This document shows, one piece after another, positions 50,150-57,063 of a stretch of DNA of 64,000 nt. The stretch comes from Nitratireductor luteus (lineage in GTDB: Bacteria > Pseudomonadota > Alphaproteobacteria > Rhizobiales > Rhizobiaceae). The translations under genes were made by a program, and so were the position numbers. The notes under the pieces are model-generated. The model was not told where the DNA came from, searched no databases, and saw only the letters and a program-made list of their open reading frames with translations. Each line of letters starts with the position of its first letter. Position 1 is the stretch's first letter. The stretch lies in NCBI RefSeq assembly GCF_026162365.1, contig NZ_JAOANW010000005.1, positions 248,001 through 312,000 on the forward strand, given 5' to 3'.

Positions 50150-53032
<2,883 letters not shown>

Positions 53033-53186
53033 TGCGCGGCGCCCAATCGCTCCTGCTGCGGGAGAGAGGACCGATGTCAGCCATCCCTTTGCCGAGCGGT
53101 CATCCCACGAAGGCGCGCCACCTGATCCACCCGCTCATGCCGATATAGCGCGTGCAACTGCACTCTGAGAACCCTTTCGGGTTGTC

Positions 53187-55781
53187 ATGAGCAGTAGTTG
53201 GGATACCCTTACCGCGCTCGATCATTTGGATCGGCTCTTTCGTAGCGGGGGAAGCGTAGTGACGTTTGATTTTGGGGGGCTTGATAAGCCGAAAGCTGGT
53301 GCCAAGGCGACCAATCCAAGGGAAATTTTCAGAAACCGCCCATCGGGAAAAGCAAAAATCAAGGAGCTTTGGCAGGGCCAAGCACAGGCGCTGGACGAGT
53401 GGTTTAAAGATCCCAAGAAAGATACACTGATATCGATGTATACTGGCGCCGGAAAGACGCTAGTTGGGGTCCTAATTGCGCAGAGTTTTCTTCATCAAGG
53501 CTTTCGAAACGTCGTTTATGTGTGCCCGACCATCGATCTGATTCATCAGACAGTCAAGGAAGCCAATGACATAGGCATCACTCCAACCACATACCATCAG
53601 AAGGTATTTTCGGACGAAAATTTCGCGAGATCGAAATCGTTCTGCGTGACCAGCTATCAGGCTCTCTTCAACACCCGCAACAAATTCCGGGGTGAGAAGA
53701 CGCCCGGAGCAGTCATATTCGATGATGCCCACGTCGGTGAGCGTCTAGTTCGAGACGCTTTTACAATCTCCGTGAGAAAGTCTAAGCACTCTCAATTTTA
53801 CGAACAGTTGGCGAGGGTGATTCGAGACTGCTTTCAGGACATCGGGCAGCGGCATAACTTTGATCAGGTGGTTTCGGATGTCTCTTCTGGCTCGGTGGCA
53901 TTGTGTCCACCGAATGGGGTTCACAATCGAAGCGCTGAGATAGAGAATATCATCAACGCTTTCGCCGACAGCGATATTGGATTTGCTCTACCGTTTGACT
54001 ATCTACGAGGTCATATCCAGTATTGTGCAATCACGATCAGTAAGTTTACAATTGAGATAACTCCACCATTCCTTCCAGCACTTCAGGTGGGAGCTCTCGA
54101 GGACCGGTCCGTTCCAAAGGTCTTCCTTTCTGCTACAGTTCAGTCAAAGGGAGATATTATCAGAGCCTTCGGTAGATCTCCCCGCGTGATCGAACCCGAT
54201 GTCGATGCGGGGCTAGGGGAGCGCCTCATGTTGTTTGGGTCCGCCCTGAATGAGTTCAGCAAAGACACCACTGGGGTTAAATCCGTCAGTGAACAGGCCA
54301 AAGTTTTGATTGCGGTGCCGAGTGACCGCGTGGCCGATAAATGGAAAGACCTGGCGGAGGCGCCTACGACGGCAAACGATTTTACTGCGAAGCTGAACGC
54401 ATTCAGGGGCGCTGAAACAGGCGCCTTCCTTCTGATGGGGCGTTACGACGGGATCGACTTACCTGACGACGACTGCAGGGTCATGGTAGTGGATGGTGTG
54501 CCGATCGGATCGGCGCAGCTGGAGCGTTACCTTTTCGATCGCATTAAGCTCGATCAAACTTTCTTCCCACGCATTGCCAATCGCCTCACTCAACTTTTCG
54601 GCAGAATTAACCGCGGAAAAAACGATTACGGCATTTATTTTATCCAATCGAGCGACGCCGAAAATTGGTTGCGAAATGTAGCTAATCAAGCCTTCTTCCC
54701 AAAGGTTCTTCAGGAGCAAATCAGACTTTCAGAAGAATTCTGCGACCAATTAAAGAACGTCACCCCGGAGGTTGTCCGCTCGATTGTGAGGCAGATCATC
54801 GAGCGCGACCCTCAATGGCTAGGATATTACCAAGCGCAGATTGGGAAGAACCCCATTGAGGAGAAACGGATAACGGATCGGGAGGCCTACACAAAGCTGG
54901 ACGATGAGTTGGCGAAGAGAGAAGCTAACTTTATGCTCAAGCTTTGGCAAGGTGACCCTGCTGGCGCCATTAGCCAATTGGCCGACAGGATCGAGGAAGT
55001 GCGGATCGCAAATCCTCGATTAGCAGGCTGGTATGCACTTTGGATCGGAACGGCAAACTGTGTCCAGAATGAACCCGAAGCGATGTTTGACTGGTTCGAC
55101 GAGGCCCGAAACCGCCTTGGCGGGAAACTTCCTCTGCCTCGCCGCCCGGCTGCCGATGTCGGTGTCCTGCAAACGACACAGACAGTCATTGAGGAAGGGT
55201 TACGCGCGTTTTGTGTTGGTAGTATTCCCGAACTCATAAGGCGTTTAACGAAATTAATCGATCATTCGCAGCCTGCGTTTGAGGATGCTGATCACAAGAA
55301 GGCCGAGGAGGCCGTCCGGATCATAGGTGCAGCCTTGGGCTTTGACTCATCGCGCCCGTGCACCGACGTCAATGATGGACCTGACAATCTTTGGGTCGAT
55401 CATCACTCGATGACAGCGATTCCCATCGAGCTAAAGACCGAGAAGGGAGCAGGATCGTCGCTCAATTCGGAAGAGGTCGGGCAAATATTTCAGCACTACC
55501 AGTGGACGATTGACAATTATCCAGAACACTCAGTTCCTGGGATACTCGTCTACACGGAGACCGCCACGGTTACCGATAGCAGCAACCCGTCTGAGCACAT
55601 GTTCTTTTCAAATAGGGAGGCAATGAAGGCTATATTCAACGCGTTCACGGTTACGGTTCAGGATTTTGGCAAGCTCACCCCGGTTGAGCGCTACGCACGT
55701 GCATCTTTGATTGGCGAAGAGGCCGAATGGTCCGCTACTGGAATTTTCAAAAGACTGGCCACGAAGCCGTTAAGGCCCTGA
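53187..55781 (+). CDS. Rad3-like helicase fused to a PD-(D/E)xK nuclease
   Basis: An 864-residue protein. Helicase part: Walker A YTGAGKT (85-91), Walker B FDDAH (178-182), SAT motif (315-317), LLMGRYDGIDLP (415-426) and motif VI QLFGRINRG (469-477), a superfamily 2, Rad3/DinG-like pattern without the iron-sulfur cysteines. C-terminal part (about 700-800): GPD 731-733 and ELK 748-750 in IPIELKTEKG, a PD-(D/E)xK nuclease motif. Between them lies a helical region without known motifs. The gene is clearly less G+C-rich than its neighbours and stands alone between uvrB and clpS. I infer a phage-defence or DNA-restriction protein; this is not shown by sequence. No strong ribosome-binding site precedes the ATG. 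Confidence 0.85.
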   Translation: MSSSWDTLTALDHLDRLFRSGGSVVTFDFGGLDKPKAGAKATNPREIFRNRPSGKAKIKELWQGQAQALDEWFKDPKKDTLISMYTGAGKTLVGVLIAQSFLHQGFRNVVYVCPTIDLIHQTVKEANDIGITPTTYHQKVFSDENFARSKSFCVTSYQALFNTRNKFRGEKTPGAVIFDDAHVGERLVRDAFTISVRKSKHSQFYEQLARVIRDCFQDIGQRHNFDQVVSDVSSGSVALCPPNGVHNRSAEIENIINAFADSDIGFALPFDYLRGHIQYCAITISKFTIEITPPFLPALQVGALEDRSVPKVFLSATVQSKGDIIRAFGRSPRVIEPDVDAGLGERLMLFGSALNEFSKDTTGVKSVSEQAKVLIAVPSDRVADKWKDLAEAPTTANDFTAKLNAFRGAETGAFLLMGRYDGIDLPDDDCRVMVVDGVPIGSAQLERYLFDRIKLDQTFFPRIANRLTQLFGRINRGKNDYGIYFIQSSDAENWLRNVANQAFFPKVLQEQIRLSEEFCDQLKNVTPEVVRSIVRQIIERDPQWLGYYQAQIGKNPIEEKRITDREAYTKLDDELAKREANFMLKLWQGDPAGAISQLADRIEEVRIANPRLAGWYALWIGTANCVQNEPEAMFDWFDEARNRLGGKLPLPRRPAADVGVLQTTQTVIEEGLRAFCVGSIPELIRRLTKLIDHSQPAFEDADHKKAEEAVRIIGAALGFDSSRPCTDVNDGPDNLWVDHHSMTAIPIELKTEKGAGSSLNSEEVGQIFQHYQWTIDNYPEHSVPGILVYTETATVTDSSNPSEHMFFSNREAMKAIFNAFTVTVQDFGKLTPVERYARASLIGEEAEWSATGIFKRLATKPLRP

Positions 55782-55911
55782 TATTTGGTACTGCTTCCTT
55801 GTCTGCCCTTTAGGAAGATGGTTGGGAGGTGGCTGGTTGGTATAGGAGAGCACGTCAGAGCCAGTAGCAGCAGTGGCAGATCCTTCGCTGGGTGCGAAGC
55901 CCTCTCCAACG

Positions 55912-56217
55912 TTACTCCTCCGGCTCCGTCTCAAACCTCAACGGATACCCCTGCGCCCGCCCGGCATCCGTTGCCCGCGCCGCCTTGGTCTCCGCCACGT
56001 CCTTCGGAAACACCGCCACCACGCACGCGCCGCGCCGGTGGGCGGTGATCATGACGCGGTAGGCCTGGTCCTCGGAGAGCCGGAACTCCCCCTTCAGCAC
56101 CGTCACGACGAAGTCGCGCGGCGTGAAATCGTCATTGATCAGAATGACCTTGTGCAGGCGCGGGCGCTCGATCTTCGGCCGGGTCTTCACGAGCCGTTTC
56201 GTTTCGGTGTCGCTCAT
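55912..56217 (-). CDS. clpS: ATP-dependent Clp protease adaptor ClpS
   Basis: A 101-residue N-recognin that delivers N-end-rule substrates to ClpA-ClpP. The core is RLHKVILINDDFTPRDFVVTVLKGEFRLSEDQAYRVMITAHRRGACVVAVFPKDVAETKAARATDAGRAQGYPL; the DD pair and hydrophobic pocket residues bind the N-degron. Start ATG 56217. Alphaproteobacteria often carry two ClpS forms, and this may be either. The upstream region is rich in REP-like palindromes. Confidence 0.94.
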   Translation of the reverse strand: MSDTETKRLVKTRPKIERPRLHKVILINDDFTPRDFVVTVLKGEFRLSEDQAYRVMITAHRRGACVVAVFPKDVAETKAARATDAGRAQGYPLRFETEPEE

Positions 56218-56327
56218 CGGGAAATCCCTTTCCGGGCCGGCGGGCGGCTGATGCGCGGCCCGATTTTGGCATGGCGATCCGCGCGCGTCCATAAGGCCGG
56301 GAACGGGCACCGCCCCGCGCGTCCGCA

Positions 56328-56370
56328 CCGTTCCGGCATGAATCCTCGGGTCAAGCCCGAGGATGACGAG
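56328..56370 (-). repeat. REP-like palindrome, reverse copy
   Basis: Contains ATCCTCGGGTCAAGCCCGAG, a perfect inverted stem. Read on the minus strand it matches the unit in uvrB (52685) and the forward copy at 56431. Together with that copy it makes a head-to-head pair 60 bp apart, like a BIME. Confidence 0.85.
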
Positions 56371-56430
56371 GAGGAGAGGGGCTTGCCAATCGCCGGCGCC
56401 GGCGTTTTGCCACCATCCCTTCTGCCATTC

Positions 56431-56469
56431 GTCATCCTCGGGCTTGACCCGAGGACCCATGCCTGAATG
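56431..56469 (+). repeat. REP-like palindrome, forward copy
   Basis: GTCATCCTCGGGCTTGACCC followed by GAGGACCCATGCCTGAATG. Differs from the uvrB copy at only a few positions. Confidence 0.85.
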
Positions 56470-57063
56470 CTGGCGGCGGCCATCGGCATTCCCATAAAGC
56501 CACCCGCCCCCGTGGACGGAAAACGCCCCCCGTTCCGGCCAAGCTCTTGTCCCGACACGCCTTTTCAATTTTCCTCGCGAAGACTTATCCCCACTCTCCC
56601 GGCCGCCCTTATCATCCTCCCCATCGCCCTCGCGGGAACCGGGTCCGGACCGGGGATCAGGGAGGGCGGCGGCAGCCTCCCCTTCCGGGTCGGTACCGGA
56701 GGCATGTGAGGGCCTGCAGCAGGCCGGAGTCCTGTGTCCTGAGCTTGTCGAAGGACGCAGGGCGCGGAGAAGCCGCGGGAGGTTCGGTCCAGGCGTCTCA
56801 GTGACGAGCCTGGGCGCCCCAAAAGGGCAATGGGAACCTTCCTTGACCGGTCACGCAGGACAGCGGCCGGCGGGGCGCGTTGATCGCGCCACATAAACTA
56901 CACAGAGAGGCACGGACAACGCGCCCCGCTTCCCACCCCTGTCGAAGGGATCAATGGCCAGACGCGAAAGCGGGCGTGGCGGCGATGAAGCGCGCGCCCG
57001 CATGGCCCCTCGGCGGCATCGGCCCGATTTCAACCAAACCAGCTTCAACCAAAGGAGAACGAG

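Follow-up and report, generated by a model that had tools for sequence, protein, structure and literature searches.

A single gene lying between uvrB and clpS in Nitratireductor luteus very probably encodes a member of the Hna/PDC-S28 family that was acquired horizontally into a defence hotspot adjoining the uvrB 3' end. The gene was studied within a stretch of 64,000 nucleotides, referred to here as the window, to which coordinates refer unless a locus is named. Its product matches the PDC-S28 models of PADLOC over its full length and the cryo-EM structure of Hna in its predicted fold; the slot that it occupies carries other anti-phage genes in related species.

An intact gene of foreign composition between uvrB and clpS

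The first-pass annotation had described a single-gene helicase-nuclease between uvrB and clpS, and one intact open reading frame of 864 aa (53187-55781, + strand) is indeed found there. All relatives begin with MxFDF or MxDF at a position equivalent to codon GTG 53259, and translation therefore probably starts at this codon after GGGGGAAG, as judged from the alignment. The resulting product of 840 aa compares with exactly 845 aa for Hna of Sinorhizobium meliloti (pSymA, NC_003037). Residue numbers below are those of the 864-aa version, and the features of the region are as follows.

50150..53032, + strand: uvrB, bounding the hotspot on the left; found in 16/16 genus genomes
53033..55913, no strand: exchanged block; homology to the closest species is lost at the uvrB stop (53028-53032) and regained at 55914, at the end of clpS
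53259..55781, + strand: hna-like gene, likely GTG start, 840 aa (ATG 53187 gives the 864-aa version); GGGGGAAG just upstream of the GTG
53331..54660, + strand: SF2 helicase core (HEL1 and HEL2), residues ~49-491, from Pfam, invariant columns and a structural match to DinG/XPD and Hna
Within the SF2 core, + strand: helicase motifs, namely Q motif Q65, Walker A 86-91, DDAH 179-182 and motif VI 469-477
53343..53375, + strand: counterpart of the Hna dimer loop and R36 in the alignment, residues 53-63
54660..55150, + strand: all-helical linker, residues ~492-655, from the predicted structure, aligned with Hna
55220..55778, + strand: C-terminal PD-(D/E)xK nuclease domain with P732, D733, E748 and K750, then conserved Q766 and W773
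55912..56220, - strand: clpS, right border, convergent with uvrB

As first noted, neither a partner methylase nor a transposase adjoins the gene, and integrase and tRNA genes are likewise missing beside it. Promoter and terminator scans at the gene gave nothing beyond chance level. Next to clpS (56326-56472) is a long imperfect palindrome (ATCCTCGGGTCAAGCCCGAGGAT); this interspersed repeat has another copy at 52670-52727, seemingly translated in frame as part of the C-terminal tail of uvrB.

The low G+C that had been read as a sign of transfer is borne out by the figures. The hna-like gene has a G+C of 0.514 and a GC3 of 0.566, compared with 0.676 and 0.899 for uvrB and 0.660 and 0.893 for clpS; the 2.5-kb interval at the gene is the lowest in G+C of the entire 64 kb (0.513; lowest elsewhere 0.592). 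Codon use is thus abnormal, and the gene is far from universal in the genus: a profile search recovered it in 1/16 species, the other 15 lacking it. Relatives are found on 231 plasmid records, 108 of these conjugative, and on 29 viral contigs. Comparison of the window gene with a 71% relative yielded a pN of 0.19 at saturated pS, and dN/dS between two close relatives is 0.05; these values indicate purifying selection and hence that the protein is maintained. One copy, in Brucella cytisi (L001 7996-10515), has 96.5% DNA identity to the S. meliloti plasmid copy and is broken by frameshifts, being either a pseudogene or an assembly error.

The product is an Hna-family helicase-nuclease

Although the gene had been thought to match no system that could be named, the full-length PADLOC match and the fold identify it as Hna/PDC-S28. 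The window protein scores 1089 bits against PDLC04987 (residues 26-862) and 465 bits against PDLC04986, with no evident difference from the family that these models define. PDC-S28 is a 'candidate' label only (PADLOC 2023). Because S. meliloti Hna itself matches PDLC04986 at 1016 bits (PDLC04987, 399 bits), this anonymous family is, by sequence comparison, Hna, with two subfamilies. Hna is also the only clear sequence relative of the window protein in the PDB (E 3e-50, residues 65-792; entries 10UJ, 9YKJ and 9YHN). The PDB titles give 9YHN as the Hna monomer and 9YKJ as the dimer; 10UJ and 9YKJ are named as S. meliloti Hna in the data statement of the structural study (PMC13381803).

An AlphaFold2 model of the window protein, built with sequences from the window and from viral-contig loci (mean pLDDT 79, pTM 0.65), has Hna 9YHN as its best structural match (Foldseek E 8.7e-43). 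VIA-align likewise ranks Hna at the top, with a Z of 37.8 over 740 residues; the rmsd of 10.8 despite this score we read as domains shifted in the model. The next match outside Hna is CasDinG, at Z 18; CasDinG and DinG/ExoDinG have the helicase fold in common with the window protein and lack full-length homology to it. The exonuclease domain of ExoDinG is of a different type and sits at the opposite end. In the C-terminal region the model displays an alpha-beta3-alpha-beta nuclease core near residues 703-789, that is, a predicted nuclease fold and not an unrelated one. The long middle region that had been considered devoid of known motifs resolves into the second helicase half, followed by the all-helical linker that is common to Hna.

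The catalytic motifs support the same assignment. Invariant alignment columns, read with an offset of 24 residues, fall on T86/G87/G89/K90/T91, D179/D180, Q469-R476, P732/D733 and E748/K750, so that the Walker A, DDAH, motif VI, GPD and ELK positions assigned at first reading all hold. We also compared 27 aligned proteins drawn from Proteobacteria, Bacillota, Bacteroidota and Actinobacteria: P732, D733, E748 and Q65 of the Q motif occur in 27/27 sequences, and K750 in 26/27. Pfam matches cover residues 60-184 (ResIII/DEAD) and 381-486 (Helicase_C_2). Like Hna, the window protein is the product of a single gene of ~840 aa with full-length homology and the same domain order and fold: an SF2 DinG-like helicase without conserved Fe-S cysteines (the sole invariant Cys column is C406), followed by a C-terminal PD-(D/E)xK domain with the same catalytic residues. 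Hna P712, D713, E727, K729 and Q39 correspond to window P732, D733, E748, K750 and Q65, and mutation of these Hna residues affects nuclease or ATPase activity (PMC13381803). The conserved residues and the fold give good support to the catalytic part of the Hna mechanism, and the effector is likely an ssDNA exonuclease.

The two 71% homologues, from S. meliloti KH35c (plasmid accessoryA) and Agrobacterium pusense (pAt1), have an identical start and identical motifs and are the immediate sisters of the window protein in the tree. Unlike the window gene, they reside on plasmids with a divergent gene for a 586-aa ATP-binding protein upstream (L050 3777-5537 and L051 3799-5559), which is absent from the window. 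Hachiman HamAB resembles the family in its helicase-plus-nuclease logic and in DNA- or SSB-linked sensing, but comprises two genes. Membership in the ResIII, dnd_restrict_1, Cas3, HamB and PbeA families was rejected, as the matches are weak and limited to the first helicase motifs.

Against the Hna assignment stand an identity of 22.5% to the tested protein, the replacement of its dimer-loop residues T30/D31/P34 and of R36, and the merely candidate status of the PADLOC label. We regard membership in the Hna family as virtually certain and a role in phage defence as highly probable; the one-gene defence architecture suspected earlier is supported by the full-length match, the fold and the patchy presence.

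A sister branch with altered dimer-loop residues

Tested Hna is a 3'-5' ssDNA exonuclease that is inactive as an ATP-bound dimer and is freed by phage SSB, leading to abortive infection (PMC13381803; PMC12445080), and it acts alone as a defence (PMC12445080). By analogy, the ATP-bound window protein would be kept nuclease-inactive in the uninfected cell. A phage replication protein, SSB in the case of S. meliloti Hna, would be involved as the trigger upon infection, and the freed protein would degrade ssDNA in the 3'-5' direction and thereby bring about abortive infection. The weakest step of this analogy is the control by ATP and dimer formation, since the dimer-loop residues are missing.

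In the tree, the window protein shares an 8-row clade of 100/100 support with the two plasmid proteins (70-71% identity) and five further members; tested Hna belongs to a separate 17-row clade, and the window protein thus lies outside the S. meliloti-type (PDLC04986) subfamily. Hna T30/D31/P34/R36 correspond to K55/A56/E60/W62 in the window protein, and among the 27 proteins the combination of Pro at Hna position 34 with R36 hardly occurs outside the proteins close to tested Hna. No experimentally characterised member of the sister subfamily was found. As this subfamily has not kept the Hna dimer-loop residues or R36, we would expect the same catalytic output with an autoinhibition interface that is different or shifted, and possibly another phage trigger; judged from these substitutions, its ATP/dimer control and its trigger may differ from those of S. 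meliloti Hna. The chance that the window protein is both SSB-triggered and restrained as an ATP-bound dimer in the manner of its S. meliloti counterpart appears, on this analogy, to fall just short of even.

The deep, fully supported split and the unconserved loop residues also agree with defence by another route within the Hna family, in which phage DNA is sensed by its structure (free 3' ends or replication intermediates), with neither autoinhibition through an ATP-stabilised dimer nor a phage SSB trigger. The core catalytic layout is unchanged, however, and other interfaces could hold the dimer together; we consider this route unlikely, albeit the strongest of the alternatives.

The slot after uvrB carries varied defence genes

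In the closest species (G004), the flanks of the exchanged block are ~95% identical to those of the window and the slot holds ~2.5 kb of DNA that is unrelated and in part low in G+C. This DNA encodes a DUF3800 protein without a PADLOC match and a 123-aa ORF without a Pfam match (L034, 653-3142 after uvrB, uvrB on +), both of them possible candidates for defence cargo.

An association of the site with other anti-phage genes, which had been suggested as a check, is evident in related species. Within the genus, the slot after uvrB contains a UG17 reverse transcriptase (DRT) and SLATT in G006, an NsnA-like DUF262 protein with a HEPN-like partner in G007, type IIG restriction-modification genes in G003 and G010, and SIR2-like genes in G005, G007 and G014. 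In other genera of the family, uvrB is followed by a dCTP deaminase (G609), a retron III-A pair (G617), a retron II-A-like pair (G017), a DUF262 protein (G018), a beta-like protein (G603) or a PDC-S33-like protein (G610). Some species of the genus have only ~1 kb in this interval. A SIR2-like protein (SIR2_2, with weak ThsA similarity) recurs in closely similar form after uvrB in three species, at more normal G+C (L035 1254-2084, L048 2512-3336 and L047 931-1821; uvrB on +). In G001 the slot (L042, 993-2600, uvrB on +) encodes a low-G+C protein of 535 aa that has TPR-like repeats and a hydrophobic segment at its N terminus; no PADLOC match and no Pfam match above cut-off was obtained for it. 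Across the loci inspected (window 53033-55913; L034-L048 and L130-L148), the cargo is compact, low in G+C and different in nearly every species.

In 34 loci taken together, 16.5% of the first 3 kb downstream of uvrB consists of strongly low-G+C bins, against 0.8% of the 4.2 kb beyond (paired Wilcoxon p 0.0008); this comparison serves as a composition control and does not count defence genes. The window site showed neither an integrase, a transposase or a tRNA nor a bordering repeat. Transfer by a mobile element was therefore rejected, and we infer that the cargo is exchanged when the flanking uvrB and clpS undergo homologous recombination.

The variable slot also bears on whether the window gene serves in housekeeping or accessory DNA repair as a helicase-nuclease of the DinG/ExoDinG kind. 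Such a function would suit the DinG/XPD-like fold and the neighbouring uvrB. It is very improbable for a gene that is absent from 15/16 genus species, has a foreign base composition and has relatives on plasmids and viral contigs, whose best structural and full-length match is Hna and not DinG, and whose site holds defence genes elsewhere. Less credible still is a restriction subunit of a modification-based system (type I/III or Dnd-like) with partners elsewhere, to which the weak local matches to ResIII and dnd_restrict_1 might point: these are limited to the first helicase domain (dnd_restrict_1, 31 bits versus a cut-off of 600), the relatives mostly lack a methylase neighbour and have varied surroundings, and tested Hna needs no partner (PMC12445080).

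Implications for the Hna family and the uvrB site

The assignment of the window gene to the Hna family ties both this unnamed gene and the anonymous PDC-S28 to a structurally solved defence. Its second deep branch is of interest because the published dimer-control residues are missing there, which renders the generality of the Hna autoinhibition model testable. The hotspot after uvrB, of which we found no description in the literature searched (mostly outside subscription journals), is apparently undescribed and constitutes the more surprising part of the result. More tentatively, and with somewhat less than an even chance of holding in full, we propose that the subfamily is a functionally distinct branch, with another autoinhibition surface and recognition of another phage component, and that the uvrB 3' end is a family-wide, undescribed hotspot for compact defence with no visible integrase or tRNA site. 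With several of its cargo genes lacking a PADLOC match, the uvrB hotspot offers a practical place to seek new compact defence systems.
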